In this document: positions 4,678-33,304 of the stretch, piece after piece
How the letters are laid out: the number at the start of each line of letters is the position of its first letter
How positions within the stretch are numbered: the stretch's first letter is position 1
Program-made: the position numbers and the translations under genes
The notes under the pieces: generated by a model
The model's input: only the letters and a program-made list of their open reading frames with translations
Database searches by the model: none
What the model was told of the DNA's origin: nothing
Virus record (IMG/VR): IMGVR_UViG_3300038552_000393
Coordinates: 1 to 57,111 of that record
Source of the DNA: a virus
Length of the DNA stretch: 57,111 nt
Reading direction: 5' to 3' (one strand)

Positions 4678-7344
4678 CTAATCTGTCAGCGCCGTCTCCA
4701 GCGCCTTCAAAATTTTATCCCGTCTCCGCGCCCCGTCCGGAGCCGGATCTGGTTGCTCCAGGGACATAATCACCCGCACGCCCAAAAAATGCGGCAGCCG
4801 CCGCTCGCCGATGGGTTTTTTCTTGATGTGAGGAAAATTCATCATTAGCTGATCGTAAAATTTATTGCGCGACAACGGCCGGTTGCCGCCACTGTGGCAC
4901 CAGCGCTTATAGGCATCGTAGGTCGTCTGAGGGTGAGATGTATAATCGGCGTCACCGGCCGGCCCCATCTCCAGGCATTCGTCCACAAAGGACAGCAATG
5001 GATACAACCCCTGCAGCCATTTGCGTTTTTCGTCGGCCACCTGCTGCGGCATGGCAAACCCGTCGTGGGCCAGCAACTCCTGCAGGCCCAGCAGAGACCA
5101 GAAAAAAATGCCGTCCCGCTCGGCCTGCAGCTTGGCCGACAGGCATGGATCCATTTCGTCCTCCTCGAAACGGCGCGGAAAATCCAAAATAATGATACGC
5201 CGCTCAAACCCATACGATTTGTCGGGGATAACGGGCGTGTCGTTCATCGCCATCACAAACTTGGCATACGGCCGAAACTGATACGGCTCACCGTATTTGC
5301 GCTCGGCCTTGATCGGGTCGCCGGCCACGGCGGCCTTGAATATCTCAGTGGAAAGCGGATCGCGCGACGATGTTTCGGTGGCGATATTGACCAGCTTGTT
5401 TTGCAGAAATTGGGTGTTAAACCGTTGCCCCAGGTCGCCAATGGACAGCGTCGATACGTTATCCCGGCCCACGACATCCTCCAGCACCCCCATGGCCGTA
5501 CTTTTGCCGTTGGCGCCCGTGCCGTACAAAAACAGCGCCTTGTCGTAGCGGCAGTCGGCCAGCAGACAGTATCCGAAAAACTGCTGCAATACCGTCTGCT
5601 TAGGAAATCCGGTGCCCTTTTTGATGTTCTCCTCATTGCCATCGTCCGGGAAAATTTCCAGCAGAAACCGTGCCCAGCGGTCCCACAGGGAATCCGGATT
5701 AAACGTGCAGGGCACCTGCACCCGGCTGCCGTACCGGGGGTCATGGGGTAACAGGCAATCCTCGATATTGTCGCGCAGCCGCGTCAGATCGATCATGCCG
5801 GAGACACAATTAATATACCCCTGGCAGTCCTCCCACTGATGGGCCTCCTTGTTAATATGGCCTACCAAGAGCCTGATCCCGCGTTCGACAAACTCCGGCT
5901 CGCCCAGTACATCCATGGCCCGCACACCGGCGGCATAGATCGCCGAGCGCGGAAACACCCGCCACACCCCCGCATCGTAGCGGTAAAACTCGCCATCCGT
6001 GTAAACCAGCGGGCAAAAAAGCTGGTAAAGGTAGTTGGCCATATACAACGGCACGAATTTCGGCCGGCCCTTGGTGCCGGGCTCGAAAAACACCATGGGA
6101 TCGACCGTTTCCGGCGCCGGGCTGGGAACATCCGGGTGATTCTCGGACTGTTCGATGCGGCAGGTGCGCACCGGGTTCTCGTCGTGGCGCTGCCGCCAAT
6201 TCGGATCATAGCCCTCGCAAAACGGGGCCAGGCTATCGGAGCCCGAGATCTGATGCTTGGCGTCCTTCCAGGTCTTTCCCCGGCACGAATCGTGAAAACA
6301 CTGGTAGGTCATATACGGCCGGTTCGGACCTTGCCAGATACCGGCCTCCTTTTCGTGGGATGGATCGAAAACGCAGTGCGCCAGGCAATACAATATGCCG
6401 TTATCGCGGCTTTTTTCCTTGATCACCTCGACCCCGTAGTGATCGAGGTATGCCCGCATATTCATCGGCCCCAGCTTGGAGCCCGTTTTTTTGGCTGGCA
6501 CGGCAGCGCGGCCGAGGGTTGAGGACGGGCCCGGCGTCGGATGGGCGCCGACCGGCGGCGATGGGTGCTTGCCTTCGTCGGCCGGCGCCAGGTCCGCCAG
6601 CTTTTTTATACTGTCGATGCCCGTCACCGACACCTCGGACAGCGTTTGCGGACCGCCCGGCATCAGGGCCGATTGCCGATGGGGGCGGTTGGACGTGGAA
6701 TCCCCCTTGCGCGCCATCGTACCGTACAATTTACAGATCCGGGCCGGGTTGAAGGTCGTTTCGTCCACCTTGATCTTTGTGTCGTCGGCCGGAAATCGAT
6801 GCGCCAGCGCCTTTAAACACCTCCGGATCAATTCCCGGTTATCGTCGCTGGGCGCAAGGTCGGGCAGCCGGTATAAAAGGTGGAATCCATTGCCGCTCTT
6901 GGCCCGGATCGCACGGGAAAACCCCATCTCGCCTTCCAGCCACCCGACAATCGCCTGGGCCGTCGTGCGCGCCTTTGCCAACTCGGTGTCGCTGGCCGAT
7001 ATCTCGGCCGGCCGCTGCGGGTCCAGGTCCACGTACAACCAGCGCAGACACACGATATCCTTGTCGGCCGTCGTGCTCTTGGGAGAGGCCTTCAGCCGGT
7101 TGGCCGCGCGCGCCACGAGATCCGGGTTGACCGGATTGAGCGTAAAATAGACCCCCTTGGCGCCCGCGGCGTCCACCGCGTCCGCGCATCGGGCAAAATC
7201 GGCCGCGTTATCGAAATAACCCGATACGGTGCCGTTACCCCCGCAAAATCCGGCCCATGCCGGAGATGTGCGCTTGCAGCCGATGGCCCGAATCTCCGCC
7301 GCCTCGCCGGGGGCAAAGAACAGCTCGAAAACTGGTTCCGTCAT
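4678..7344 (-). CDS. AEP primase - SF3 (D5-type) helicase
   Basis: The replication initiator of the phage (888 residues). The N-terminal third is an archaeo-eukaryotic-type primase: LYVDLDP supplies the catalytic Asp pair (about 105), SGNGFHLLYRL the SxH motif (about 150), and KVDETTFNPARICKLYG the third acidic motif. A zinc-binding stretch follows (CLAHCVFDPSH ... YQCFHDSC). The C-terminal half is a D5-N plus SF3 helicase: Walker A GTGANGKST (about 611), Walker B region KLVNIATE, and motif C AMNDTPV. It would open DNA and prime synthesis. The start ATG 7344 overlaps the upstream stop (ATGA) and follows GGGGGG; a longer frame reaches 7374. Confidence 0.92.
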   Translation of the reverse strand: MTEPVFELFFAPGEAAEIRAIGCKRTSPAWAGFCGGNGTVSGYFDNAADFARCADAVDAAGAKGVYFTLNPVNPDLVARAANRLKASPKSTTADKDIVCLRWLYVDLDPQRPAEISASDTELAKARTTAQAIVGWLEGEMGFSRAIRAKSGNGFHLLYRLPDLAPSDDNRELIRRCLKALAHRFPADDTKIKVDETTFNPARICKLYGTMARKGDSTSNRPHRQSALMPGGPQTLSEVSVTGIDSIKKLADLAPADEGKHPSPPVGAHPTPGPSSTLGRAAVPAKKTGSKLGPMNMRAYLDHYGVEVIKEKSRDNGILYCLAHCVFDPSHEKEAGIWQGPNRPYMTYQCFHDSCRGKTWKDAKHQISGSDSLAPFCEGYDPNWRQRHDENPVRTCRIEQSENHPDVPSPAPETVDPMVFFEPGTKGRPKFVPLYMANYLYQLFCPLVYTDGEFYRYDAGVWRVFPRSAIYAAGVRAMDVLGEPEFVERGIRLLVGHINKEAHQWEDCQGYINCVSGMIDLTRLRDNIEDCLLPHDPRYGSRVQVPCTFNPDSLWDRWARFLLEIFPDDGNEENIKKGTGFPKQTVLQQFFGYCLLADCRYDKALFLYGTGANGKSTAMGVLEDVVGRDNVSTLSIGDLGQRFNTQFLQNKLVNIATETSSRDPLSTEIFKAAVAGDPIKAERKYGEPYQFRPYAKFVMAMNDTPVIPDKSYGFERRIIILDFPRRFEEDEMDPCLSAKLQAERDGIFFWSLLGLQELLAHDGFAMPQQVADEKRKWLQGLYPLLSFVDECLEMGPAGDADYTSHPQTTYDAYKRWCHSGGNRPLSRNKFYDQLMMNFPHIKKKPIGERRLPHFLGVRVIMSLEQPDPAPDGARRRDKILKALETALTD

Positions 7345-7547
7345 TCGCCCCCCGCTTCGAAGGATCGTTGGCATTCAATGCAGCGCCGGCAATGCGGTAC
7401 GGCCCGGCGCCGGGCCTCCGGTATCGGCTCCTCGCAATCCACGCAAATATCCGACCCGGCACCGGCCAACTCTCGACCAACCGCCAGCACGCCCATTTGG
7501 ACGCTAAAATCGGCCATCGCCTGGGCATCGTCTGCGATATCGGTCAC
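7341..7547 (-). CDS. TraR/DksA-type zinc finger protein
   Basis: A 68-residue protein with a C-terminal C4 zinc finger of the DksA/TraR type: CVDCEEPIPEARRRAVPHCR then CIECQRSFE. The family binds RNA polymerase at the secondary channel and changes promoter use; short phage and plasmid members act without ppGpp. It starts with a GTG that overlaps the stop of the 57-residue membrane protein (GTGA) and its stop overlaps the primase start, so three genes are coupled. A role in redirecting host transcription early in infection is inference. Confidence 0.85.
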   Translation of the reverse strand: MTDIADDAQAMADFSVQMGVLAVGRELAGAGSDICVDCEEPIPEARRRAVPHCRRCIECQRSFEAGGE

Positions 7548-7717
7548 TGGTCGTCTCCTCGCGCCCCGAAGTTTACCTGATCAACATTGGCCCAGAATCG
7601 TTCTTTTCCAAGCCGCGCGCGCCGCTTGGCGCGCGCATAAACGCCAATGGACAATACGATCCCGAACGACATACCGGCGAAGACACCTATTATTAAACCC
7701 CAGATAAAATCAGTCAT
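7544..7717 (-). CDS. 57-residue single-pass membrane protein
   Basis: A short gene with one membrane helix (FIWGLIIGVFAGMSFGIVLS) followed by a positively charged cytoplasmic tail (YARAKRRARLGKER). It has an excellent ribosome site (GGAGGTGATCA) directly before ATG 7717, overlaps the end of the DHH gene by eight bases, and its stop overlaps the next start. The topology would place the basic tail inside by the positive-inside rule. Function unknown. Confidence 0.7.
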   Translation of the reverse strand: MTDFIWGLIIGVFAGMSFGIVLSIGVYARAKRRARLGKERFWANVDQVNFGARGDDQ

Positions 7718-8600
7718 TGATCACCTCCACGAATCCCGCGGCGCCCCGATGGCCGCCGCCGCCATGCCACCGGCAGAACTCGGATACGTCGATATCCTTA
7801 CTATAGAGATTATTGCGACGCCGCAGGACTCCGTCCTTCTCGCGATACTCGGTATAAAGCCAGGCCACCGCGTAACCCATGTCGTTGTTGATCAGCGCAC
7901 CCATGTCTCCCGAGGCCGGATAATTGACCCTCAAAACCTTTGCCGGCGGTTTTCCGGACTCGATGATCACGGAATCTTCGTACCCCAGCCGATTGGCAAA
8001 TACCTTCAAGCCGCCGATGCGCGTCTCGTACAAATACCGGCCGAGGTGGGCCTCGACGTATGATTCCAGGATGGGACGGTCCATTTTAAACCACCGGTCC
8101 CAGATTGGCGACGCCGGAGACGTATCCTTTTCGGCCCGGTAACACTCGTAAAAATGCCGGGCCAGGTCGCCATAGGTAAACGCCCACACATCGCGGTCGG
8201 CGATCAGGTCCACGGCGACCGGCGGCAGCAGGGCTATCTGGTCGCGGCAGTACCACCACACGGCAGCGCACGAGGCCAGCCCGTCCAGGCGCACACCGGG
8301 CAGGTTTTTAAGCACGGGATCGTCACAAAGAGAATCGATCGCGGTCCGGTGATGGTCGAACCACCACATGCGATCGGGAGAAAACAGATCCGCCAATGTG
8401 AGCATGATGCCCTTGGGAAACGAAAAATCGACGATCCACAACTGGTCGTCATCCTTGGGCAAGCCGAAGGGCGGCACCGGTTGCCCGTAGTCGATGGCAA
8501 AGTAAACGGGATCATATCCATTGTCATCGCCGTCTCTTCCGGCAATGGCCGCGGCGCACCGGCCGTCGGCATCGTTGTGATAAACGATGAATCTTTCCAT
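7710..8600 (-). CDS. DHH-family phosphoesterase
   Basis: A 296-residue metal-dependent phosphoesterase of the RecJ/NrnA superfamily. Motifs: HNDADGRCAA (residues 8-17), IVDFSFP (about 58), FDHHRT with the name-giving DHH (82-84), LIADRDVW (motif IV), and the C-terminal DHHA1 substrate-binding signature GGGGHRGAAG (280-289). Family members act as 5'-3' exonuclease, nanoRNase or cyclic-dinucleotide phosphodiesterase; the short length fits the NrnA/GdpP side more than RecJ. In a phage it could recycle short oligonucleotides or remove defence signals; that choice is inference. The ATG follows the preceding TAG directly, with AAGGAGAA upstream. Confidence 0.88.
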   Translation of the reverse strand: MERFIVYHNDADGRCAAAIAGRDGDDNGYDPVYFAIDYGQPVPPFGLPKDDDQLWIVDFSFPKGIMLTLADLFSPDRMWWFDHHRTAIDSLCDDPVLKNLPGVRLDGLASCAAVWWYCRDQIALLPPVAVDLIADRDVWAFTYGDLARHFYECYRAEKDTSPASPIWDRWFKMDRPILESYVEAHLGRYLYETRIGGLKVFANRLGYEDSVIIESGKPPAKVLRVNYPASGDMGALINNDMGYAVAWLYTEYREKDGVLRRRNNLYSKDIDVSEFCRWHGGGGHRGAAGFVEVIND

Positions 8601-8834
8601 CTAATTCTCCTTTTTCTGATGTTTCAATCCACGCCCACGTGGGGAAGACTTTATCTGAATTTTTCTGCTCAACCACATCGGCACCACCACCCGGCCCGGC
8701 CACAGTTGTACATATTCCCGGTTGGGCAGGTTCAACGCCTTGCCGGTCTCGGCCACGCGCACAACGATCTTGCGCGCATCGATGGACAAAAGATCGCTGA
8801 TAACAATCACGTCAACCGCCCGGGTTCGCCGCAT
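8601..8834 (-). CDS. Small hypothetical protein whose 3' end contains a CRISPR-like repeat
   Basis: A 77-residue protein. The N-terminal 55 residues look like a small beta-rich domain (VDVIVISDLLSIDARKIVV, then LNLPNREYVQLWPGRVVVP). The last 15 residues (SSPRGRGLKHQKKEN) are coded by a 29-base sequence closely resembling a type I-C CRISPR repeat plus the ribosome site of the next gene. Such an ending is what a repeat gives in this frame, so the tail is probably not functional as protein. GGAGAGACAGG precedes the ATG, which overlaps the preceding gene. Function unknown. Confidence 0.6.
   Translation of the reverse strand: MRRTRAVDVIVISDLLSIDARKIVVRVAETGKALNLPNREYVQLWPGRVVVPMWLSRKIQIKSSPRGRGLKHQKKEN
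8621..8649 (-). repeat. Solitary type I-C-like CRISPR repeat
   Basis: On the minus strand the sequence begins GTCTTCCCCACGTGGG and ends GCGTGGATTGAAAC. The last 14 bases equal the 3' part of typical type I-C (Cas5d-processed) repeats, including the ATTGAAAC handle, and the 5' GTC...CCCCACG also fits. A short stem (CCACG with CGUGG, loop UGGG) can form just before the handle. There is only one copy: no second repeat within several hundred bases on either side and no cas gene in the window. It lies in sense in the mRNA of the early operon, just upstream of the DHH gene. Resemblance is from memory of repeat families, not from a search. Confidence 0.82.
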
Positions 8835-9054
8835 CCTGTCTCTCCCGTATCAGCAGCCGGTCGAGATCGGCCGCGTGGTACAATTTTACCCGGCCGCAGA
8901 CCCGGCAACAGACCTGCCCGGACAGCCGGTCGAAGTAGGCCGGCGACATATTGCAATAAATCGCCGCCTCTTCGCGCCTCAGCCAGGGGCTGACGATCCG
9001 GGTGGTCTGCACCTGGCCCGACCGCTCTTGTTGGTGGCAGATAACCTCTCTCAT
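8812..9054 (-). CDS. Excisionase-like HTH protein
   Basis: An 80-residue protein. WLRREEAAIYCNMSPAYFDR is a typical HTH_17/excisionase helix pair, followed by a Cys-containing wing (CCRVCGRVKLYHAADLDRL). The final 'hydrophobic-HAADLDRLL' helix fits the Xis/AlpA pattern. Start ATG 9054 is chosen for AAGGGTGG upstream; the frame stays open to 9147. With 2588-2836 it is one of two excisionase-type genes. Either could assist the integrase or control the early operon. Confidence 0.72.
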   Translation of the reverse strand: MREVICHQQERSGQVQTTRIVSPWLRREEAAIYCNMSPAYFDRLSGQVCCRVCGRVKLYHAADLDRLLIRERQDAANPGG

Positions 9055-9501: not shown

Positions 9502-9768
9502 TCATCCCTCTTCGTCGGCATCGGCCGCGCCATTGATATGTTGTGAAATTCCGTCCGCAATCACCGCCATGTCCTTAGTCATCCAGACCGCCAGCGGCAC
9601 CCCGGACACCTCGGCCAAGAGCAGGGCACGCTCATAACTCGGCCTGATCTTGGCCGTCAGGACCCTGGATACCCAGTCCTTTCGGTATCCGGTCTGCTCT
9701 GATAGATACGTGGCATATCCCCGATCTATGCCCTTATTAACCATGATGCCTGCACCTGTTAACACCAT
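9502..9768 (-). CDS. Cro-like helix-turn-helix regulator
   Basis: An 88-residue protein with the HTH-like core RGYATYLSEQTGYRKDWVSR followed by VLTAKIRPSYERALLLAEVSGVPLAVWMTKD. This core is clearly paralogous to the C-terminus of the BRO protein at 10478-11284 and more weakly to 11806-12024. Two starts are possible: ATG 9768 and ATG 9744, each preceded by a copy of AACAGGTG. A perfect 24-bp palindrome lies about 30 bases upstream of the first, where an autoregulatory operator would sit. It may be the first gene of the early operon. Confidence 0.72.
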   Translation of the reverse strand: MVLTGAGIMVNKGIDRGYATYLSEQTGYRKDWVSRVLTAKIRPSYERALLLAEVSGVPLAVWMTKDMAVIADGISQHINGAADADEEG

Positions 9769-9795
9769 TGATTTACACCTGTTAACTATTCGTGT

Positions 9796-9819
9796 TTTCG
9801 CAATTTGCAAATTGCGAAA
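9796..9819. promoter_or_regulatory. 24-bp perfect palindrome, candidate operator
   Basis: The arms are TTTCGCAATTTG and CAAATTGCGAAA, perfectly complementary over 24 bases. The element sits upstream of the HTH gene at 9502-9768 and just beyond the end of 9828-10043. A 22/24 match lies at 56561-56584 and a shorter form (TTCGCA-TAT-TGCGAA) at 56073-56087. Perfect dyads of this type normally bind dimeric HTH regulators; which protein binds is not known. Confidence 0.6.
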
Positions 9820-9827
9820 TGCCATTT

Positions 9828-10043
9828 TCAAGGGCGTTCAAAGTTGCGCCGCACGCAACTTTCATTGGCACTCAAAGTTGCGTGCGACGCAACTTCAGGC
9901 TCAAAGTTGCGTCGCACGCAACTTTCGTTGGCACTCAAAGTTGCGTGCGACGCAACTTTGAGTGCTTGCGTAACGTCATCGAATCCGATTACCCTTGAGC
10001 GAATCCGGCTGGCCAGAAGGTGCTGCAGATCTGATATCCGCAT
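9828..10043 (-). CDS. Small protein with repeat-derived C-terminus
   Basis: A 71-residue ORF with a strong site (AAGGAGTACCC) before ATG 10043. The first 30 residues (MRISDLQHLLASRIRSRVIG...) look like an ordinary short phage protein. The remainder is translated from the palindrome array and repeats itself: VASHATLSANESCVRRNFE occurs twice. The array has therefore probably inserted into, or expanded at, the 3' end of this gene. The original length and function cannot be seen. Confidence 0.5.
   Translation of the reverse strand: MRISDLQHLLASRIRSRVIGFDDVTQALKVASHATLSANESCVRRNFEPEVASHATLSANESCVRRNFERP
9840..9959. repeat. Array of four 23-bp palindromes
   Basis: Four copies of a dyad with arms AAAGTTGCGT and ACGCAACTTT around a 3-base centre: 9840-9862, 9874-9895 (one base short), 9903-9925 and 9937-9959. 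Centres alternate in orientation (CGC, GCG, CGC, GCG), and copies 1-2 and 3-4 form two near-identical units sharing the linker TTGGCACTC. Spacings of start points are 34, 29 and 34 bases. It looks like a duplicated palindrome pair rather than a CRISPR array. Each copy could fold as a strong hairpin or bind a dimeric protein. Confidence 0.85.
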
Positions 10044-10212: not shown

Positions 10213-10488
10213 TTACCGGGGAGGAGGCACTTGCGCATACACCGGCTCGCGAGCTTGCCGCACGGCATCCGGCAAACTCGCGGCCGAAAAGAAGAGGCCG
10301 GCGACCAGGGCCACAACCAGCGCCATACCCATGGCCTCGGATATCAGGCGCATGACAATCTGCGGCATCCGGCTGGCGTCCGGCCTGTTGCGGGCTTGTT
10401 GCCGCAGGCATACGGGCACATGATCGACGGCGGGAATAGTCTCGTTCAGAAATGTGATGCGGGTCTTTGCCGAGCGGTTAGTTGGCAT
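10213..10488 (-). CDS. Small membrane-anchored protein
   Basis: A 91-residue protein with a basic, soluble N-terminal half and one membrane segment (MGMALVVALVAGLFFSAAS, about residues 53-71), ending in a proline-rich tail. Its ATG overlaps the end of the BRO gene (ATG within the last codons), so it is probably translated after it. No family was recognised. Confidence 0.55.
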   Translation of the reverse strand: MPTNRSAKTRITFLNETIPAVDHVPVCLRQQARNRPDASRMPQIVMRLISEAMGMALVVALVAGLFFSAASLPDAVRQAREPVYAQVPPPR

Positions 10489-11284
10489 CCTGCACCGCCT
10501 TTCCGATTAAATCCTCATCCTTGGACATCCAGATGGCCAAGGATATGCCGGACACCCTGGACAAAATGACCGCGCGGTCGAAACTGGCGCGGGATTTTGC
10601 GTTGAGCACCTTTGAAATATAGCTTTGGGTAAAGCCGGTCTTTTGTACCAGTGTCTGCGCGTAGCCACGCGGGGTTTTACCGCCGCCCGTAAACTTGCGC
10701 GGCTCTGAATAGGCCTTCGCCGGTTGCGCGGGTTTAGCAACCGGCGAAGGCGCATCGCCGGGCGGATTAATCTTAACCCCTACCATTTCCAGCACATCCA
10801 CCCCGTGAAGTTCCTTGACCATCTCGTTGGCCTTCAGCCGGCACTCGTCGATCGTCATGCCGGCCCGCTGGCAAACCCGGATGCCGGCGCCGAAATCGCG
10901 ATCCAGAATGGTCAAGGGGACTTGATCGGGACGGGGAGGGGAGGAGGGGCGGGGAGCCTGGTAGCCGCCGGTCTTGCGGATCGAGGGCAGGACCTCGTGG
11001 GTCACCCAGCGCCGGAAGGGCTTGGCCTCCGGTTTGTTGCTGCGCATGATCAGGGTGTAAAGACCGGATTCGCTGATGGTCGTCACGTCGCGTTGCTGAC
11101 CTGCACCGTATATTTTACGGTTCAGCTTTTCGTCCTCATCCAATTTTTCACACGCTTGCCAAGAATCGGCTATGCCCAACACGTCGCAAACATCCTTGGC
11201 CACCCACCATGGGTTGCCGGCTTCATCCATTAAAACCCGGACCGATTGATCGTTGTAACTGAATGCCATTAAATCGCCTTGCAT
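10478..11284 (-). CDS. BRO-family protein with C-terminal HTH
   Basis: A 268-residue regulator. The N-terminal 110 residues form a Bro-N domain (YNDQSVRVLMDEAGNPWWVA KDVCDVLGI in one run, then ESGLYTLIMRSNKPEAKPF and HEVLPSIRKTGGY), a DNA-binding domain common in temperate phages and large DNA viruses. A Pro-rich linker leads to a C-terminal HTH unit (RGYAQTLVQKTGFTQSYIS ... SGISLAIWMSKDED) closely similar to the protein at 9502-9768. ATG 11284 follows an excellent GGAGGTGATTTT; the open frame extends 64 codons further but is not supported. Upstream dyads (11316-11367) suggest regulation. Confidence 0.85.
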   Translation of the reverse strand: MQGDLMAFSYNDQSVRVLMDEAGNPWWVAKDVCDVLGIADSWQACEKLDEDEKLNRKIYGAGQQRDVTTISESGLYTLIMRSNKPEAKPFRRWVTHEVLPSIRKTGGYQAPRPSSPPRPDQVPLTILDRDFGAGIRVCQRAGMTIDECRLKANEMVKELHGVDVLEMVGVKINPPGDAPSPVAKPAQPAKAYSEPRKFTGGGKTPRGYAQTLVQKTGFTQSYISKVLNAKSRASFDRAVILSRVSGISLAIWMSKDEDLIGKAVQDAN

Positions 11285-11315
11285 AAAATCACCTCCATCA
11301 TGTTGATTTATTGAT

Positions 11316-11367
11316 GGTTCACCTTGCTGACCCCCGCAGATCACCAAGGTGAACACAGGTGAACTTG
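11316..11367. promoter_or_regulatory. GGTGAAC dyads upstream of the BRO gene
   Basis: GTTCACCTTG (11317-11326) and CAAGGTGAAC (11345-11354) are perfect 10-base inverted repeats 18 bases apart, and a third half-site ACAGGTGAACTTG follows at about 11355-11367. They lie 32 to 83 bases upstream of the BRO start codon, where an operator would be expected. The regulator is unknown; the BRO protein itself or a Cro-like paralogue are the natural candidates. Confidence 0.55.
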
Positions 11368-11389
11368 CCGTGAATAAAAATTCACGGCA
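11366..11389. terminator. Hairpin at the end of gene 11382-11663
   Basis: TGCCGTGAAT and ATTCACGGCA form a 10-bp perfect stem with a 4-base A/T loop. It overlaps the last codons of the gene at 11382-11663 and sits before the BRO promoter region, so it would mark the 3' end of that transcript. No long T tract follows. Confidence 0.5.
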
Positions 11390-11663
11390 GACTGCTGAGC
11401 AATGCCACAACGGCCTGCTCGTACCGCCACAATCTTTCTTCAATTGGAAGGATCCGCAATTGAGTCTCGATCGCACGGCTGATGAACGTCGAAAGTCCGA
11501 CTCCCAGTTCGGAACAGACAGCCCGCAGAGCGGCCTTCTGTGTCTCGGTCAGCTTGACCTGGCACCCGTCTGTTTTCGACTCGCTCCGGGGTGCGTCCCG
11601 GTAAGCTTCGAGAGTTTTTTCGATGTTCACGGTCCCGCCAAACACACAATTTTCAATCTTCAT
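11382..11663 (-). CDS. Small putative ribbon-helix-helix-like protein
   Basis: A 93-residue protein. The segment QVKLTETQKAALRAVCSELG followed by VGLSTFISRAIETQLRIL has the strand-helix-helix layout of MetJ/Arc or MobC-type DNA-binding proteins. A short C-terminal helix follows. Start ATG 11663 (AAAGGGGAAAAGCAGA upstream) is preferred; another start at 11756 also has a good GGGGAG and would add 31 residues. Likely a transcriptional regulator of the immunity region. Confidence 0.55.
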   Translation of the reverse strand: MKIENCVFGGTVNIEKTLEAYRDAPRSESKTDGCQVKLTETQKAALRAVCSELGVGLSTFISRAIETQLRILPIEERLWRYEQAVVALLSSLP

Positions 11664-11805: not shown

Positions 11806-12024
11806 TCAATAATCAAGCTGATTCATTCTTATCAATTCACGCTTGATCTCTTCGGAGGAACCAAACAACCAGATGCACGCAGTAACTCCAGTCACATCTT
11901 CAAGCACCTTGGCGCGCAATCTTCCAGGACGTTTTCTGGTCCCGGCATAATCGGAAAGCTCCTGAGTTTTTATCCCTGTTTGTTTTTTGATATTTTTTAA
12001 TAACCCGTAAGGAAGCCTAAGCAT
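11806..12024 (-). CDS. Cro-like HTH protein divergent from the repressor
   Basis: A 72-residue basic protein. PYGLLKNIKKQTGIKTQEL then SDYAGTRKRPGRLRAKVLED matches a short XRE/Cro-like HTH, and its end (VTGVTACIWLFGSSEEI) resembles the SGxxLAxWMxKDE ending of the two other HTH proteins nearby. ATG 12024 is eight bases after AGGAGA. The gene is the first minus-strand gene opposite the plus-strand repressor, with 126 bases of dyad-rich sequence between them, the usual cro position. Confidence 0.7.
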   Translation of the reverse strand: MLRLPYGLLKNIKKQTGIKTQELSDYAGTRKRPGRLRAKVLEDVTGVTACIWLFGSSEEIKRELIRMNQLDY

Positions 12025-12040
12025 GAGCACTGTCTCCTAT

Positions 12041-13221: not shown

Positions 13222-13929
13222 ATGCAAAATTCTAACGGATTGAAAACGCTTTTTGTTAGTGTAATTTTTGCAATAATTTTATCACTTTCCACGACTACAA
13301 AAGGATGGTGTGACGACTCTTGGCAAGGAAAGGTTGTCGGCATTTCAGACGGGGATACCATAACGGTGCTAAATGGCGGCATTGGCGAAAAAATTAGGCT
13401 CTATGGAATTGACTCGCCTGAAATTGGGCAAGATTTCGGGAAGAAGGCCAAGTCTTTTACGTCCGGTCAAGTGTTTGGAAAAATGGTAACCGTAGTACCC
13501 ATAGACCATGACAGGTATGCCCGAACGGTTGCGGTAATTTATGCCGCACCAAACGAAGAAAGCCTGAATGAAAGCATTTTGCGAGCAGGCTATGCCTGGT
13601 TATATAGCAAATACTGCAAGGCTCAGTTTTGTTCCGACTGGATTAAAATGGAGCAAGCTGCAAAAGAAAGCGGAATTGGCCTATGGTCCCAAAAAAATCC
13701 GGTCGCGCCTTGGGTCAGCAGGACAAGGAAGAGCACTTCTAATAGCGTGCCTGGTCTCGATAGCAACTCACCCGCAACCGAAACGATATATCATGGTAAC
13801 ACCCAATCCCATATCTTTCATAGCGCAGGATGCAAGCACTTTAATTGCAAGGCATGCACTGCCTCTTTTAGCGGCAGGGATGAGGCCATCACCGCTGGCT
13901 ATAGACCATGTAAAGCCTGTAATCCTTAA
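13222..13929 (+). CDS. Secreted thermonuclease (SNase-like) with Cys-rich C-terminal module
   Basis: A 235-residue nuclease. Signal peptide about 1-30 (FVSVIFAIILSLSTTTKGWC). The SNase domain shows VVGISDGDTITVL (calcium-site Asp), IRLYGIDSPE (catalytic Arg), HDRYARTVAVIY (second catalytic Arg) and a C-terminal ESGIGLW. After a Ser/Thr-rich linker comes YHGNTQSHIFHSAGCKHFN followed by CKACTASFSGRDEAITAGYR and PCKACNP, an Ada-type four-Cys metal-binding module. The same module ends the virion-operon protein at 41717-42247. Expected to act outside the cytoplasm on DNA or RNA. AAGGTAAATAA precedes the ATG. Confidence 0.9.
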   Translation: MQNSNGLKTLFVSVIFAIILSLSTTTKGWCDDSWQGKVVGISDGDTITVLNGGIGEKIRLYGIDSPEIGQDFGKKAKSFTSGQVFGKMVTVVPIDHDRYARTVAVIYAAPNEESLNESILRAGYAWLYSKYCKAQFCSDWIKMEQAAKESGIGLWSQKNPVAPWVSRTRKSTSNSVPGLDSNSPATETIYHGNTQSHIFHSAGCKHFNCKACTASFSGRDEAITAGYRPCKACNP

Positions 13930-20597: not shown

Positions 20598-23500
20598 TCA
20601 GCGCTGGGTCGCGCGAAGCTGCCGGCTGACCTTTTTGCGAGCCCTGGCGCGGGCGTTTTCGATAATGCGCGCGATCTTGCGCGCCCGCGTGGCATCGTCC
20701 CACTTTGCGTAAATGCCGGAGGCGGCCAGCGTTTCGATGCGCGCGGCGGCATCGGCCGACGAGCGCGATAGGTACTCCCGGTACTGGGCCTTGTCCATCT
20801 TGTGCGGCACGCCGCCGATGGTCATGTTGGGGGATGGCGGGCCCATGCGCAAAATACCACCCTTCTGCAGGCGCTCGATCTCGGCAAAGCCCTTGCCGGC
20901 AACCGCGGGTGCCTCGATGGGCGTGGCCAGCTTCGGTTGCCAGGCCGTGGCCACGTGTATGCCGGCGCTGTGCAACAGGGCCGAAAGCCCGTCCTCTTCG
21001 CCCTGCAAAAAGCGCAGCATTTGGCCCACTTGAATCGGCTGCATGTTGATCGCCTGGTTGACCACCACGGACGGCAACCGGTTGAAGCCCGACTCGATCG
21101 GTTCGTGAGACGACTTCTTGACCGTCTTGCCCGTGGTCAAAAGCTCGCCTGCCCCGGTAAACGGCCGGTCGGCCCAGTCACTGCCCGAAAATCCGGCGCC
21201 CATGGCCCGCATGAAGGGCGAGGCCTTGCCCTTGATCAATTTCACCGGATCCAAAAGTTTCAACGGGTCGAAGAAATGCCCGCCCAAGGAAAAGGTCTTG
21301 CGCTCACCGTCAAGTTCAATACCCAGCATGCGGTACAGCTTGGAAATATCGATCTCGGTCCAGCGGAACTTGCTCCAATTGCCGGCGCGCAGTTGCTCGT
21401 CTATGTGCTTTTCCGTATCGTCCTTGCCGTTTAGCAATAACTGCGCAATGATCGTGGACACGGCAATGCGCAAAATCACCCGGCCCATGAACTTGCGATA
21501 CATCGGCGCCATACCCGGAGTCGGGGCCACGTCGCCGATGGCCTTTGAAATCTTCTCGTTCAGCCCTGGAATCATGCCGGTCACCATGCGAAAATTGCTC
21601 TCGGTCCAGTCTGGCGCCAGCAGCATCAGCCGCGACAAAATCTGCAACGTCGGGTTGCGGCCCATGCGCTTTAAGTGCAGCCCGCCGAAGTCCTCATTGA
21701 TCAACCGCGCCACCCGCTCGGCAATCAGGTCCGGATCGGGCGCCGCGGCGCCGGCATGATGCAAATCCTGGGCCTTGGCCAATTCATGCACGTACTCCAC
21801 GCAAAAAGCCTCGGCCTTAAGCCCGGCGAAATACCGCTTGAACAACGAGTTGGTCCAGCGCTCGCGCATGAATTTGCCGCGCGCGATCATGTCTGTGGCC
21901 TTGTCCCATCCAAAATGAGCGGCGATCCGCTCGGCTATGCCAGGGTCCCGGGCCAGGATCTCGTCGGACCAATCCTGCATCTCTCCCAGGGTCAACCCCT
22001 GCCGCACGCCCAGGCTGATCAAGGGATGCAGATCGAACACTTTGTCCAGGCCCGCCTTGTACGCCCGAAAGGGCGCGGCCTTGGCCGGAGCGAGCACGAT
22101 GCCGTCAACCCCGGCCGCCTGCCGGGCCTCGTCTTTTCCGGCAAACTCGCCGATCACGCGGTCCCCGTCACCGGACAGCGCCACATACTTGCCCCGGCCC
22201 CAACCGTGATGCACGCCGAACACCCAACTCCTGGCGCCGGCCAGGTGGTGAAAAAACGAGGACATCAATACCCAGCCCTTGATGGATGAGTTGAACCGCG
22301 AAAGCAGCTTTAAGACCGGCGTATTGGCAAACAAGGGGTCGCTGGCGGTCATCTTATTGATCATCTCGGCCAGGGACGCCGGAGCATAAAGCTTTTGCTT
22401 CTGAAACAGCTTGGAAACCTCCGTGGCCGGACGGTGCTCGATGCGCGCGTAGCCCTGCTCGTCGGCAAAAGTCTTTGCCTGTCGCTCGTCGGTAAATACC
22501 CTGGCGGCCCGGGTGGCCGTGGCATCGGCAAAGACCGCCCAGGTCTCGGGCACCTGCTCGGGGGGCGCCAAAAAGACCTTCTTGCCCCATGAATTGGTCT
22601 CCAGCACGCCACCGAGGCCGGTCATGTCAACGGCCTCGGCCGCCCCGGCCAGTTGCCACACGGCAAAACCCTCGGCCTTCAACTCGCGGTAGTTCTCGTA
22701 GCCCGGTACCCGGCTGGTGTTGGTGGTAAACAGGCTGCGGCCGGAGGCGTCCTTCGTGCCGGCCCCGCGCTGGATGAAGGCCCGGTTGGCCAATACCGTG
22801 ACCAGCTCCTTCATATATTCATGGTAGGAATTGGTGATCCCGGACACGGCCAGTTCGTACCCGTCGGCAATGGCATCCAGGGCCGTCTCGTAAGTCCGCG
22901 GCCGGGCCGCGCCATGGGCCGTCTTGAACCCATGACCGGGGCCGCTCCAGCCCGACATGACGTTAACCCCGTCCTCTCCCGGACGTTTACGGTAGATGCG
23001 CCGCACGTAGTTATCGACATGGCTTTGCACCACCTTGTGATCACGCGCCAGATCGTAAGCCGCTTCGAAGTGCTCGCCCATCCGGTCGGCAAACGCCTTC
23101 TGCTCGTCGGTCAATTGAGAGGCCAAATCCAGAGCCTTGACCACCCCCTGGAGATAAACCCTTCGGGCACCCGAGATCTCCTTATCTTCGAGCTGCAGCG
23201 CGGCCGTTTTTTTAAAACCATCGATCTTGGACATGTCTCCGCCGGCATCGCGATAAAAAAACAGGGCCTGGTCCAATAGCCGGCTTTGCATCGACTCCTT
23301 GATCTTGGGCCGGTAGCCGATGCCAAGATGGATCCGCTTGCGGCTGGCCGGCCCGGCCAGCGTCTGGACCTGTTCCTGCAGCTTGGCGGTCATCACGCTA
23401 ACATTCTGCCGCGCCTGGTCGGCCATCTCGAACAGCTTGTTGGCGAAGCTGCGGTCCTTCTCCAATTCCGCCGTCACCGCCGGCCCGGACGGCTGGGCGG

Positions 23501-26500
23501 CCACCAGGGCGTACTGCGGCATGCTGTCGCGCAGGGCACTCTCCGATCCGTCCGCCGGCCGGCTAAAAAGGCTCCCGCTCTCAATTCCGCGCACCACGGA
23601 ACGGGCCGAGACCGACCGCCGCACCAGATTGGCCAGGGCATCGATCAAATCGGCAATCCTCTGCAAAGTCTTGCCCACGATCCCGGACACCGCCGCGCGT
23701 TTTTTAAGCTGCTCGGCTACCCAGGCGGCCCGGTCTTCCGGCCCGCCGATGTCCTTTTTATTCAGGGCGCTCCACTTTCCGTTGGCGCTAAGCTGCTTGA
23801 TGCGCTGGCGCAACGCGGCCACCTCGCGCGGCGTGATCAATCCGGCGTCTTCCAGAAAATGCACGCTCTCATGGGTCAGTATCCAGCGGTCGGCAAGGTG
23901 CCGGGACAGTTCGATGGTGCCATCCTGGTATCTGCCGGCAACCAGCACGCCGTCATCTGCCATCGCCCCATATCCAAGATTGACGGCAACACGGTTCGGG
24001 TCGATCTTGTCAACCTTGCGGATCTCGATCCCCCGGCCATTGGCCAGCCTGACCCAAATCACATCCGGATCATTGACTGAAACGCCCACTGCCTGGCCGG
24101 GAAAGGCGGCTTGCACGTCGCTTAAAGTCACTTCGCCGGATCGAACCTCCCCCGGCCGGGAAATGGCAAATTGCGGTGACTCCTCGGGCTTGACCCGCGC
24201 CGGTGTCACCTCATCGCCGGGCTCACCTTGCCCGCCCTCATCCAGTTGCGTCAGTTCGCGGTTGATGGCCGCGATGCGCCGGCGGATCTGCTTCAATTCG
24301 TCCCCGTAGCGGAATTTCTCCTTGGCAATGGCGGAAAACTCGGCCAACTCTTTTTGTGCTTCGTCCATCCGTCCCTGGAGATACCGCGGCCGATCGGCCG
24401 CCGCCTCCAAGAACTCGTTAAACGGCCTGGACAGCGCCCCGGGTAGGGTGTTGGCGGATACCTGCCGGCTGTCCAGCCGCCGTCCCTTATGCGATACGAC
24501 AAAAAAAGCGTTTTGCAGCGGCCGCTCCTGCACCGTGCCATCGTCCTTTTCCACCGTGTAAAACGCGAGCGGCGTGGATGGCTTGGCACCGCGATCGTAG
24601 TTCGTGCGGGCGGAAAACGCCAGTTTGACGGCAAAATCTCCCATCGCAAAATCAATGGCTTCGACCAATTCCGGCCCGTGCATGCCGGAAGGGGCGCCCT
24701 TCTTAAAATCGCCCATGGGCTTGCCGACAAATTGCGCCCGCCAGCCGGCCACGATGGCTTCGATTTTCCCGGCAAGCCTGGCAAACGCCTCCTTGCGCGG
24801 CAATGTTTCGCCGTCGATGGTCAGCTCAACAACCTTGTGCCCGGCAAAATGCGTCTCGATATAATCCGCCACGCCGGTCGCCGTGTTTTTTTCGGCCGCG
24901 AGGCGCTCGATTTTCTCCGGCAGTTCAGCCGCCTGGCGCCGGGCCGCGGACACCCGGCGCACATGGCTCTGCTCGGCGATCTGGTACTTGTGCTGCTTGT
25001 GCAGCAAATCGGTCTTTTCGAACAGCAGTTTTCCGGCCTTGCCCGAAGCCGCCGCGGCAAACTCGCCGAAGGTCGCCTGCTCGACCGAAAACGGGTCATC
25101 GAAGTCCCGGCCAGAAATATCGCCCGTCAGCACCTGGTCGGCCCCTTTTTGCTTGCGCATCAGGCGCTGAAACATGACCGAATCCAGGGTATCCTTCGTA
25201 CAGTAATGATAGATCTCGACTTCCTCATTCTCGTTGCCCTGGCGGACGATACGGCCGTCGCGCTGCTCGATGTCCATCGGCCGGTCCGGCACGTTCATAT
25301 GATGGGCCGCCTTCAGCTTTTTAGCGATGTCCACGCCGATGCCCAGCTTGGCCGTGGTGCCGACGATCACGCGCGCTTCGCCTTTCCTGATTTGCTCCTT
25401 CATGCGCGCTTGCAGCTTTTCGTTGGTGCCGGTCTCGGAAAAGAGCAGCACCTCCTTTTCCGGTATGCCCAAGGCCACCAGCTTTTGCTTCAAATTTTGA
25501 TGCAAATTGAACTTGGGCCTTTTTGCGTCATCCTTGATCAGGTCCAAAAAAACGATCTGCGTACTGCGCGCGGATTTGGTTCTTTCCCAAATTTCGTGTA
25601 TTTTTTTGGCGGCTGCATTGGTTTTGCTGGTGGGTTCGTCCGGGTAGTAATCCGGGTCGATCAGCCGCAAATCCACCGCGGCCTTCTTGGCCTGGTTGTA
25701 AAGGGTCAAAGGAACATGCCGTTGCTTGCGCTTTTCACGCCCGGGTAGCTTCTCCCATGCCCGCCATTGTTCGATAATGCCCTTGACAAAGGCCGTCAGC
25801 TCGGGACTTTTTTCGTTGACCACGATGGTCGGTTTGCCCCCCGCAATCTTCGGCAGCGCAAGGTTGGCATCCCGTGTCAGGCGCACATCGGCCCCGGAAA
25901 AAAACATCGACAGCAGCTCCGGGCCATTGATGTATTTTGCAAATCGTTCGACCTCGCGAAAACCCGATGCGGTCTCCTCGGTGTCCTCCACGACATCGCC
26001 AAAATCCGTAGCAAAGCTGTCGAACTGCGCAACACCGTATTCCTTCAAAAGGTCGGGACGCACATAGCGCAACATGGTCCACAATTCGGCCAGGGTGTTT
26101 GATATCGGCGTGCCGGTGGCCGTGATCACGTTCTTGCCGCCGGTCTTCTGCCGCACGAATTCGGCCTTCAGAATCAACCCGGTGCTGCGCTGCGATGATC
26201 CGTTGTCGATCCCTTTGACCTTGTTCAACCGGGTGTAAAACTCGCTGCGCTTGTAAGAATGGACCTCGTCGATCAAAATGGCATCGATCCCCATCTCCTC
26301 GAAGGTCAAGACCTCATCCTTGCGCCGGTCCAACAGCGCTTCCAGTTTCTGCCGCTTGCGCTCCATGAGCTTCACCAGGTCCTTGACCGTAAACGAGTCA
26401 CCCCCCTCGCCGGCCTTGGCATCCTCGATGGCATCCTCGATGGCGGCCAACTGCTCATCCACGAAGGCCCGCTCCCGGCCGGGGTCGTTGGCGATGCCGT

Positions 26501-29500
26501 CGAAAAATGACTGGGGCAGCACGATGGCGTCCCAGTTACCCGTGGCCATGCTCACCAGGGTTTTCTTGCGCATCTTGGAAGAACGCTGGTCCATATCGGG
26601 AATCAGCACCCGGGCGGAAGGATAGAGCAGTTTGAAAGTGTTGCGGTACTGATCGATGGTCTGGTTATGGACCACGATCACCGGCTTGCGGGCCGTGCCG
26701 ATGCGCCGCATCTCCATGGCCGTGGTGATTAAAATTATGGTCTTGCCCGTGCCGACCCCATACGCCAAAAGCACCGATTCCTGCAACGCGCGCGAAACCG
26801 CGATCTTTTGAAGAGAGCGAAGCTTGATGCCTCGCGCGGCACCCGGGTAGTAATCGATGGCAGGCTCGCTATGCCGCCGCAGGATCGTGCCGTTTTTCTC
26901 CTCGTTGTAGACCCTGGCCAGTTCCTTGCCCCATTTCGGATGGGTCTTGGCCCAGCGCACGAACTCCTCGTTCAACTCCTTGCGTTTGAGTTCCGCCTCC
27001 TTGGATGCGTCCTTATCTTCGTAAGTGTGCTTGTTCGCATCGGTTTTCATCACCCTGGGATGATGCAGATTGAGCGACATTTCGACCAGCTCGTCGGCCC
27101 GGTAATTGCGGTCCCCGAAGGTCTCGCGGCTCTTGACCCCGTATTGGCCGCCTTTTACCTTCAAGCTCCAGCCGGCGCCGGTTTCGGTGTTGCGGCGGGA
27201 CACCTCGGCCGTAACTTCCAGGACATCTTGCATGAAGTCCTCGACCGCGCCGGGCAAGACCCAACTCGATCCGAGCCGGAAAGTAATGAACTCGATATCA
27301 AGGTCGGGGGGAATGACCTTTTCAAGCGCTTGGACATTGGCGGTAAAAGACGGGTCATCTTCGGCGGCAAGCCGCGCGCGGGCGAGCTTTTTCTTCACAT
27401 TGCCGGAAAGATACAGATCCCGCGGCTCAATGAGCCCGGTCGCGGGGTTGATGAACCCGAGGCCTTTTTCCACCAGGTCTTTTTTGATTTTTTCAAAATC
27501 CGTCTCGCCCAGCAGATCGGCGATGTAATAAGGCGAAAGCTCGCCGCGGTAGATGATCGACAGGCTGGCGGCGTCCTCGATGCCGCTGGCGGTATCCGGC
27601 TCGACAAACGGGTAAATGGTTCGCGTTTCGAACACCGGCGCCTTTTCGTACCGTATCGCCTCCCCGTCGCCGGGGGCTTCGACTTCCAGCGCATCCACGA
27701 CGGCAAAATCGTTATCCAGCTTCCTTAAAAAGGAATTGGCCGTATTTCCGTTGAACCGGCCGTACTTCGCGACAAAGGCATCATAGCGGTCGTTAAGATC
27801 GCGCTGCAGCCCGGCGATTTCGTCATCCGTGGCCGATTCGGCATTCATGGCGGCAAAGAGCCGCACCGTCAGGTCCCGAATATCCAGATAGGCCTTGACC
27901 CGCTGCATCTGGGCCGGGCTGACCTTTTGCATCTCGCCCTTGCTGTTGGCATACTGCGGGTGGATCAGCCGTCCGTTTTCGATCAGGCGCACCTGCCCGT
28001 CCTTGATCGTCAGGGTGCCCTCCTTGGCCGAAAGTTCGGCGATTTCGACCTTCTCGATTCCGGCCAGGCTCGTGCCCTCGCCGGCAATGTTTTCGGGCAA
28101 CGTCTCGATGGCCGCGGCCAACTGCTCGCTCAATTTTCCGGTCGGCTCCACCGTATAGGTATCACTGCCGTACATCGAACCGCTCATGGCGTGTTTGCCA
28201 AGGACCATCTCGGGGTGCCGGTGAAAATACTCGTTTACCGGGTGCAGCCTGCGGATTTCATCGACCGCCTTGTCAAGCTCCCCTTTCGCCTTGTCCCGTT
28301 CCTCATTGTAGCGCGCCTTGCTGTTTTTACCGGCGTCCTTGGCCGGCTTGCGCGCTTCGATTTCGTTAAGCGCCGCGCGCGCCGCTTCCATCCGCTGATA
28401 GGCTTCTTCGGCGGCCGGCCCTTCCAAGTGCAATGTGGTGCGAAAGTCTTCACCGCCCGAGGTCGCGGTCGAATCTTTTTTGCGCAAAATCAGGATATCG
28501 GTCACTACTTCGGTGCCCGCGTTGGACGCAAAGGCCGTGTTGGGCAGCCGCAACGCACCGATCAGGTCCGCCTGGCCGGCCAGATAGCCCCGCGCGGGTC
28601 CGGCGGCCTTGGCGTCCAATGACCAGTTGGACGTGATGGCGATCATCATCCCGCCCGGCTTGACGGCCGAAAGCGACCGGGCCAAAAAATAATTGTGCAG
28701 TTTCCACCCGTCGTATTCCGGGTGGCGCTTGTCGGACACCTTGATGTCGCCAAAAGGCACGTTGGTGATGGCAAGATCGATGGAGTTATCCAAAATGCCC
28801 TTTGATTTTTCAAAGGGACTGATCTGGATATTGGCTTGGGGATAGAGCTTTTTTAGGATGCCGCCGGAAATGCTGTCCATCTCGACCCCGAACAGGCTGC
28901 TTTTAGCGGATAGATCGTCCGGCATCAACCCGAAAAAATGCCCCGCCCCGGCCGCCGGCTCCAGCACCGTGCCGCCGGCAAACCCCAGGCGCCGCGCCAT
29001 GGCCCACATGGCATCGATCACCTCGCGCGACGTGTAGTGGGCGTTGATCGTCGAACGCTCGGCCGAATCCCACTCTTCCGGGGTCAGCAGACCGCCCGGG
29101 GCCGGGTGCAACTTCTGTCCGTATTTTTCCTTCCAGGCAAGGTAGGCCTTGCCCCGATCCGCATAAAAATAGTTATCCGGGGAGATATGCGCGTCGCGCT
29201 TGAGGTACCTGGTGAAATCGCGGTTGAAGACTTTTTGGGCAAACGCCCCCCAACCCGTGTAGCGGGCCAGGACCTTCTTTTCATCCGGGGCGGGGTTGCG
29301 GTCTTCCTGCTGGAGCAGCTTTAAAAGCTGGATGGCATCGATATTGGCCTTGATCTTGCCCTCGACGCCGGGGGGCACAATCACGTCATCCGGCGCGATG
29401 ACGTGATTGCGGTCTGGCGGGGCTAACTCTCGTTTGCTTCCGGCGGGTTCCGGGCCCACTCCCAGATCTGGAGCTGCAGGTCTTCGTCGATGGGATCGGC

Positions 29501-32500
29501 TTCCGGCACGTCGGTCGGGGACACCATGTTCTGCACGATCTCCTCGATTTCTATCTGGTTCAACTCCCCTTGTTCCTTGAGCCTGGCCCGGTGCCGGAAG
29601 GCCGGCGCCGTCGCTTCCTTGATCTCCGTAAACAGCGTCTTTCGGTCGGCCTGGAACTTTTCCGCCGTCTCCTGCGGGTAGCAGTTGAGCAGATGCAGCA
29701 CCCTGGCCCTGAATAGGCTGTTCATAAGAAACCTCCTGTTTTTTATCAATCGTAGTACTTGCCGGCGCCGGCGTCAAGTCTTTCTTAGGGGCTTTTTTGC
29801 CGGTCAAAGTGGTAACGGCGGAGGGTTTTTCAGCGGTTTCGGTCGCTTCAAGTTGCGCTGCGGCGATCTCGTCGGCCGGCGACATCTCCTTAGCCATCTC
29901 CTCGACACCTGGAAAATAGCGCGCCCCTTCGTAAAACGACCGCAAGAACGGCTTGACCTTCTCTCCCAAGTCGGCAATCATCGCTTTGGCAAAATCGCCG
30001 AACTTCCGCGCCCCGGCCTCGACATGGTAGACGGCAAGCTCCGTGCCCCAGGCCAAAAGCTCGGGGTCGATGCCGGCCGAAAGCTGGTTGAGCTTGGCCC
30101 GCAGCTTGGCCCGCAACTCCTCCGCCCGCTCGCTGGTAACCAGCTTGTTCTTGGATCCATACTCCGCCGGTCTTTTTTTAGCCGCCTTGCCCGCAAGCGT
30201 CCGGACCCCGGCACCTTTGTTTTTTTCCTCCAACGCCGTTTGCGCCCAGACGTTATTCGAATACGCCTTCAACACGGCCGCCGGCACGTCCTTGCCGTCT
30301 GCCACGGCCCGCTTGACGTGCAGGGCATGGGCCGCCTGCCTAACAGATAGCTCATCGCTATCCTTGGCCCCGGACAGGTATTCAAGCTTGGTCATCTGCC
30401 AGGGCTCTTTTGGCGCCGGAACCTCGGCAGGTGTTTCAACCCGGGTTGAACCTGCTGGGCGTTCCGGCGCGGCTGTGACGGACGCAGTCTGAGAACCGGC
30501 TTCTTTTGCCTCGAACCCGGCCAGTTCTTCTTTTGTCAGATATTCGTTGCGCCCTTTGCTGCGCAACACCCCTGGCGAATCGGCAGGTTTCTTTGCGCCC
30601 CAGGGGGTGATACCGCGCGGCGCTTCGATGGCGATACCGTTTTCGATATAATACCGATGTCCATCTTCTTTTTCATAAACCTGAAATCCATCGCGGTTGA
30701 CACCGATCCGGCGCTCGGCGGGAGCGGCCGGGAGCTTTTCTTTCTTGACCAGCGGCTGAACGATAAATTCTACTCCGCCGGCCTTAATGGTCTGCGCAGG
30801 CACCAGGTTGTTTTTGGCGACAGGCTCACCGGCCGGAGCTGTTGCCGCTTCGGCCAATCGTCGGGTGATTTTTTTCAGCAAAAGACTCGGCTGCCGGGGA
30901 TCGGGCTCGATCAAATCCGCGATCCTCGCCTGCTGTTCGCCGGTCAAGCCGGCAACATAATCCCTATACTCCTGCAGGGCCTTTTCGCGCTTGGATGAAG
31001 GAGCCGCGGGCATGGGCTGGCCAAGCTTTATTTCATGCAGCTTACCGTCCTTGGCGCTTAACTGCACGCTGTCAAATGTGACTTCTCGCCCCTCAAGCGT
31101 TGCGTCTCCGACATATTTCTTACCTTCCCCTTTCTTCACATACGCGATGGTCACAGGCGGCTGGTAATCCTTGAACGTCTCGCCGGGCAAATCCACCGTT
31201 TCCCCAACCTTGCGGTTGGCCTTGCGAAGGTCGGCGCTGTCGATATCCGCCTTGACCACATCATGATCATCGGCTTCAAAAATACTGACCTTTCCGATCC
31301 TGGCCTTGATCGGCCCCAGGCCGGCAAAGGCCGGGGCGATTTCCTTGGGGTCCACCGTCTCCATGCCGTAGCGCACCGTGATATGCGGCTGCCTTTCGCG
31401 GCCATAAGAATCGTCGTCTTTGCGAGTATAGATTTCCTTGTCCGGGATCTTGCTGCCAAACGATACGACTTCCCGCGCAACATCGGACGGCAGGCTGACC
31501 TGAGTCGAACTGTAATCATGCTTGACTGCGGCGGCTGGCTTCTTGCCTGTCAAGGTCGCTACCGCCGATTTCGACACGGCTGCAACCGGACTTTTTAGCG
31601 TCCCTGCGGCATCCGCCGCACCCTGCGCGGCCGGGTTGCTTCTGCGGCCAGTCAACGAAGCCACTCCTTGCCCGCGCACCGGTGCTATCCGCTGACCACC
31701 TTGCAATTGCGGCCCGGGGCTGGATGGTTGAGGAAGGGCTTCGGAGGCCTGCTGTTGCGGTGAAATTGCGCCCGAAGGCGTCGCTGTGGCAGACGCCGGA
31801 CCGGGTTGAGAAGCTTGTTGAGGTTCCGTTCTCACCGGGGCCAGTCGCGGGCCTCCTTGCAATTGAGGCTCGGGAATAGCTGTGGCAGAAGAGGATTCGG
31901 CGGGTTGCACCGGTGGCGGACCGTCATTCGAAAGCTGCGCGGTACCGGCCGCCGGACCGGAAGCCTCGGCGGATACCGGCATTGTGCGCATCGGCGCCAC
32001 ACGAGGACCGCCTTGTAACGGCGCGGCACCGGCGGTCTGAGTGGTTTTTTCCTGCTCTTCGGCATTCTGTTCCTGGATCACCGAGGCCAACATCGCTTCG
32101 GCTTTCTTGCGCGCGGCGTCCTTGCGCGCGGCGTCCCGGTTGCGCGTGTCCGCCGGGCTGGCCGCCAGGGCCGTGGCCGAACCGGTTTCGTCCAGCGATT
32201 GCCCGGAAGAAGGCGGTGGCGTTGCAATGCCCATATCGCGGGAGGCAGCCGCGGCCGGGTCGATACCCGCGTCCGCTTGCCCGGGCTTGACCACGGCGCC
32301 GGCGCCGGCGCCCAGCACCCCGCCGATGATCCCGGACTCGAGTAGCCGGCCGATGTTATCTGAAAACGTCTGGTCGGGTTTATGCCCTATTTTTTCGGCC
32401 AGGATGTTGACCGCCTCCTGGGCCGTCTCGGTCGATCCCTCCACCACCGCCTGGCGCACGATGCGCTTTAGCAGCCGATCGGTGCCGGCCTTTTTCAGCA

Positions 32501-33248: not shown

Positions 33249-33304
33249 GGGCAAACCTCCACTTGAACGTGTTTGGTTTTTTTTGTGGGAAAAAAAGCTG
33301 GCAG

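Follow-up and report, generated by a model that had tools for sequence, protein, structure and literature searches.

We identified a solitary 29-nucleotide CRISPR-like repeat, GTCTTCCCCACGTGGGCGTGGATTGAAAC, on the minus strand of a 57,111-base virus record from IMG/VR, the whole of which is referred to here as the window. The first 12 bases of the repeat coincide exactly with type I-E repeats and its last 16 with type I-C repeats, and the canonical I-C hairpin is lost. Our preferred reading, held tentatively and with somewhat less than even confidence, is that this 29-mer is a real hybrid repeat unit that arose by recombination and that, if it works, would serve as a decoy in the manner of an RNA anti-CRISPR. 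An initial annotation had placed a 29-base solitary CRISPR repeat at this position, inside a phage early operon and in the direction of that operon. Direct reading of the sequence bears out the placement, and the core idea stands. The features on which the analysis draws are as follows.

1–1002: integrase
4678–7374, minus strand: primase, used as an anchor for finding relatives, which were without the repeat
7710–8600, minus strand: DHH phosphoesterase gene (phrog_4771, E 6.8e-26), directly downstream of the 77-aa ORF
8601–8834, minus strand: 77-aa ORF of no known family, whose 3' end passes through the repeat
8621–8649, minus strand: solitary 29-nt CRISPR-like repeat, read directly and detected with a covariance model
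8621–8636, minus strand: 3' part of the repeat, 16 nt, GGGCGTGGATTGAAAC, an exact match to type I-C repeats that holds the 11-nt I-C 5' handle
8638–8649, minus strand: 5' part of the repeat, 12 nt, GTCTTCCCCACG, an exact match to type I-E repeats in the arrays of L002 and G076
8812–9054, minus strand: small HTH-like gene that precedes the repeat in their shared operon
52638–54101: TerL

The window encodes an integrase, TerL, a primase, a Bro-N antirepressor and an internal virion protein akin to that of BcepMigl-type podoviruses, and it has an early operon that runs leftward; this gene content indicates a temperate phage of podovirus-like type. The repeat is located in frame among the final codons of the 77-aa ORF, whose TAG abuts the ATG of the DHH gene (8600–8598), and an SD-like AAGGAG sits within the 20 bases between the repeat and this ATG. 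An HTH-like gene that looks similar to the one upstream of the repeat, as judged from ORFs compared by eye, is located upstream of the primase in two other phages (L003 and L004). No sigma-70-like promoter beyond chance expectation was found upstream on the strand of the repeat, which is without a promoter of its own, and no terminator was found after it.

Several additional features of this phage were observed. Four near-identical palindromes of ~23 nt (AAAGTTGCG...CGCAACTTT), spaced by ~31–32 nt, lie at 9838–9961, immediately ahead of the leftward early genes, and this set looks like an operator array. A similar-looking HTH segment is common to the genes at 9502–9831, 10478–11476 (C-terminal part) and 11806–12030, where it ends in SGVPLAVWM / SGISLAIWM / TGVTACIW; these genes are possible paralogues that read the array. 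A thermonuclease-like gene (13222–13929, plus strand; EcnA/NucI models, PADLOC SNc+LTD) is found in the rightward region, close to the repressor, and one ORF of 4270 aa (20598–33410, minus strand) takes up more than one fifth of the record.

The 29-mer is present once in the window. The next best ungapped match agrees at 19 of 29 positions, nothing conspicuously repeat-like occurs within 400 nt, and scans of the main ORFs with PHROGs, Pfam, NCBIfam and PADLOC revealed no cas genes. The absence of both a second repeat and cas genes, as stated in the initial annotation, is thereby confirmed for these searches.

A single crossover from a type I-E repeat (5') to a type I-C repeat (3') explains 28 of the 29 bases. 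Like type I-C repeats, the 29-mer ends in GTGGATTGAAAC, but it differs from these Cas5d substrates in having GTCTT rather than GTCGC or GTCAC, in its length of 29 nt, and in having no stem that abuts GTGGATTGAAAC. Like type I-E repeats, which are Cas6e substrates, it falls within 28–29 nt and has a GTCTTCCCC-type 5' half, whereas the I-E 3' half and its 8-nt handle (GTGAACCG type) are replaced by their I-C counterparts. The description of the repeat as 'type I-C-like' in the initial annotation therefore holds for the 3' 16 bases and not for the 5' 12 bases. Throughout, we take the array types I-E and I-C to follow from the repeat sequences alone, as established knowledge would have it.

The I-E assignment of the 5' part draws on arrays in two genomes. 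An independent genome (G076) carries I-E arrays with ~32-nt spacers and the 29-nt repeat GTCTTCCCCACGCACGTGGGGGTGAACCG, which shares both its first 12 bases and its total length with our 29-mer, such that GTCTTCCCCACG recurs at 61-nt spacing. A Planctomycetota MAG contig (L002, JACPCR010000093) also has an I-E array with 29-nt repeats and ~32-nt spacers. A search with the 12-mer GTCTTCCCCACG itself is what revealed the I-E half and also led to this contig, and independent support is limited to the arrays of these two genomes and to the absence of GTCTT from the I-C arrays seen. Because a 12-mer of this kind is expected by chance about once per genome, the support comes from the arrays and not from single matches.

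Identity to known repeats had been proposed as a check on the CRISPR assignment. Among 84,980 species genomes, the exact 29-mer is absent and a gapped search returned a single match, an I-E/I-C junction repeat in L002 (3891–3922), so the match exists only in gapped, hybrid form. This repeat likewise consists of GTCTTCCCCACG followed by GGGCGTGGATTGAAAC, but it is 32 nt long and is located between two arrays. In the 10 matching genomes of 294 Planctomycetota, all listed I-C repeats have GTCGC except one, and this sole GTCTT exception is the same junction repeat (genome G001). The I-E identity of the 5' part, the I-C identity of the 3' part, the rarity of GTCTT and the match to the junction repeat together lead us to read the solitary 29-mer as an I-E/I-C hybrid unit.

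On the MAG contig itself (L002:3585–3986; G001:C59), the I-E array runs via the hybrid repeat into an I-C repeat, which may reflect array recombination or an assembly junction. Planctomycetota are an unlikely host group for the phage, judging from a TerL search in this phylum that gave no close relative (1/392, 32% identity). Searches of phage and plasmid collections for a host yielded distant matches only.

It is very unlikely, judging from the sequence, that the 29-mer arose by chance and is not CRISPR-derived, because both of its halves match CRISPR repeats exactly. The 19-base 3' pattern CGNGGGCGTGGATTGAAAC matched 52 IMG/VR stretches, mostly arrays or solitary type I-C repeats, with ~36 distinct solitary copies among them; the same pattern reversed gave no match across all of IMG/VR. 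A covariance model built from 16 other 32-nt I-C repeats, with the window sequence left out, scores the 29-mer at 23.4 bits (E 5.6e-5 in the window, where the next best place reaches 9.1 bits), although its E-values are rough and a score of ~23 bits alone is not decisive over the whole collection. This score is below those of nearly all other solitary units. Rfam gave nothing at gathering score at this site and only weak matches to CRISPR-DR7, DR9 and DR10 (E 5–10), and IMG/VR holds no exact or near-exact 26-mer.

The bases might otherwise be explained by chance or by the coding need of a gene whose product ends in SSPRGRGLKH, given that the repeat is in frame within an open ORF. The exact matches of both halves, the empty result for the reversed pattern and the composition of the ORF make this explanation very improbable. 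Third-position GC is 0.74 in the body of the 77-aa ORF, which is coding-like, and 0.47 in the repeat plus tail, which is not, as measured over 51 bases only. These values agree with the earlier proposal that the SSPRGRGLKH C-terminus is simply the translated repeat. A search for homologous proteins with this tail but different DNA found none.

Among the collected I-C repeats and solitary units, a hairpin nearly always forms directly between GTC and GTGGATTGAAAC. Its pairs covary (alignment A2), with 94.8% of cells paired and a covariation score of 0.419 compared with 0.291 (sd 0.031) in shuffles, and in other phages, units that begin with GTCTT carry compensating changes in the 3' arm (TTCC...GGAA; L068 and L070). 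In the 29-mer, only C7–C9 can pair with G14–G16, which yields a 3-bp stem that does not touch the handle, and three of the six model pairs are mismatched or lost. Cas5d leaves an 11-nt 5' handle and remains on the 3' hairpin (PMC5965380). Because the canonical I-C hairpin is lost, both cutting and tight binding of the 29-mer by Cas5d appear doubtful. The initial annotation had envisaged such cutting, which would sever the mRNA ahead of the DHH gene; this part of its proposal is not supported, as the structure does not predict it.

These findings bear directly on whether the 29-mer might be a canonical I-C RNA anti-CRISPR that Cas5d would bind and cut, severing the early mRNA ahead of the DHH gene. 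The 11-nt handle is intact, the placement at the 3' end of a small gene recalls the acrIC5-racrIC1 locus (PMC10651486), and several viral I-C units stand just before an SD and a start codon. However, the hairpin adjoining the handle is lost here, whereas other I-C units, even those starting with TT (L067, L068, L070), keep their stem. Moreover, an SD and start within 70 nt are not enriched among the solitary units (8/36 versus 5.0 expected, sd 2.0). We consider this explanation unlikely.

The best fold of the isolated 29-mer (-7.0 kcal/mol) is CCACG-UGGG-CGUGG followed by AUUGAAAC. It leaves an 8-nt 3' tag in the I-E register (G21/A22) and, together with the 29-nt length and the 5' half identical to I-E repeats, could be taken to indicate a decoy for the type I-E enzyme Cas6e. 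This explanation is improbable, since the AUUGAAAC tag does not correspond to an I-E handle and the fold is no better than those of shuffled sequences (z -0.54) and is not favoured in its sequence context (z 0.89). There is a similarly slight chance that the unit is a dual-type RNA mimic hidden in a coding frame, which would engage both I-E and I-C proteins in hosts carrying both.

A degenerate ectopic repeat is also typical of CreA antitoxin RNAs (PMC9458426), and the handle plus the following bases might by this comparison direct Cascade to a phage promoter. In contrast with CreA, no target was found for the 29-mer, as its best TTC-adjacent seed is 5 nt and shuffles reach 8, and the phage has no second degenerate repeat. 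Since CreTA loci are recognized by a second degenerate repeat and a spacer-like promoter match, and neither is present within this phage, a guide function and a partner repeat were both rejected; we regard such a function as extremely improbable.

Relatives were sought with four proteins. None were found with the DHH protein or the 77-aa protein. The primase identified relatives (L003–L005, the nearest at 39–47% identity) and TerL identified others (L007–L012), in all of which the repeat is absent. A 13-bit match in L003 (14817–14849) lies in an unrelated place, appears chance-like and was discarded. In the phages nearest by primase, the 77-aa gene, the DHH gene and the repeat were all not seen, which indicates that the repeat lies in a variable cassette with these two genes. 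Conservation of the 29-mer in related phages had been suggested as a check on function; there is no sign of selection on the repeat, because no relative that was found carries it.

Under the decoy reading that we prefer, repeats of types I-E and I-C would have recombined, before or after capture by a phage. The hybrid would be transcribed, if at all, within the leftward early-operon mRNA, and the transcript would carry the intact handle UGGAUUGAAAC and be able to form the 5-bp hairpin CCACG/CGUGG ahead of its 3' tag. By analogy, the intact handle of this early mRNA might tie up Cas proteins and draw them away from genuine crRNAs, with inhibition as the possible outcome. Against this reading stand the broken I-C hairpin, the lack of favoured folding in context, the lack of a promoter and terminator belonging to the repeat, its absence from the relatives that were found, and its position below the published SRUFinder thresholds.

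Alternatively, the repeat could descend from an array of the host, or from a recombined one, and be decaying without function, with the ORF reading through it by accident. We judge an inert remnant of this kind to be only a little less likely than a weak decoy. It would account for the broken I-C hairpin, the missing promoter, the conservation that was searched for and not found, and the composition of the repeat plus tail, which is not coding-like. However, it leaves unaccounted for the perfectly intact 16-nt 3' part, including the handle, the placement of the unit in a compact early operon, and the wide retention of such units by other phages.

Solitary repeat units of types I-C, I-E, I-F and V-A inhibit CRISPR interference (PMC10651486). 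Among these RNA anti-CRISPRs (Racrs), RacrIF1 inhibits by occupying Cas6f and Cas7f, and RacrIC1 follows the small gene acrIC5 on one bicistronic RNA (PMC10651486). The 29-mer resembles RacrIC1 and other Racrs in being a single phage repeat for which no cas genes were found, in its sense orientation relative to the upstream small gene, and in its intact I-C handle. It differs in its lost I-C hairpin, its I-E-type 5' half, its lack of a promoter of its own and its location inside an ORF. SRUFinder masks ORFs and demands at least 90% identity and at least 90% coverage to a known repeat, a bit score of at least 41.1, and the absence of any further repeat, complete or partial, within 100 bp (PMC10651486). 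No such neighbour lies within 100 bp of the 29-mer, but its best collected repeat agrees at 24/29 positions ungapped (~83%, 32.2 bits), below the identity and score thresholds, and it is probably not intergenic, as it lies inside the 77-aa ORF, though the tail of this ORF is not coding-like. The 29-mer would thus act, if at all, like a Racr, but it cannot be filed as one.

RNA anti-CRISPRs were discovered with ORFs masked and with 90% identity to one known repeat demanded. Such searches probably miss this unit because it is inside an ORF, is a hybrid, and is without the standard hairpin. If units of this type work, the RNA anti-CRISPRs known so far are a biased set, and a single unit might be active against two CRISPR types. 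If they are inactive, they show the recombination and decay of captured repeats.

Other solitary units were observed among the viral matches. The I-C-type unit GTCTTCCAATAACAAGGGAGTGGATTGAAAC of a 42-kb phage (L067:595–625) comes right after a near-consensus promoter (TTGACT...TATAAT) and precedes a terminator-like hairpin, which makes it a candidate textbook RNA anti-CRISPR. Solitary I-C units stand 12–34 nt before an SD-equipped start codon in seven further cases (L013, L014, L021, L024, L042, L057 and L062), where Cas proteins could act on translation; six proteins tested downstream of such units matched no PHROGs family. Units before an SD were rejected as a regulatory class, as they are not enriched relative to random positions. 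A phage with I-C arrays (L068, L070; IMGVR_UViG_3300020048_000033, 143 kb) has some repeats with the compensated TTCC...GGAA stem, two of which come after a recurring ATTAATATAATATTAGTACTG sequence, as though each were equipped with a promoter. Finally, one phage contig (L034) carries two separate solitary I-C units, at 7999–8030 and 2627–2660, one of which has diverged.
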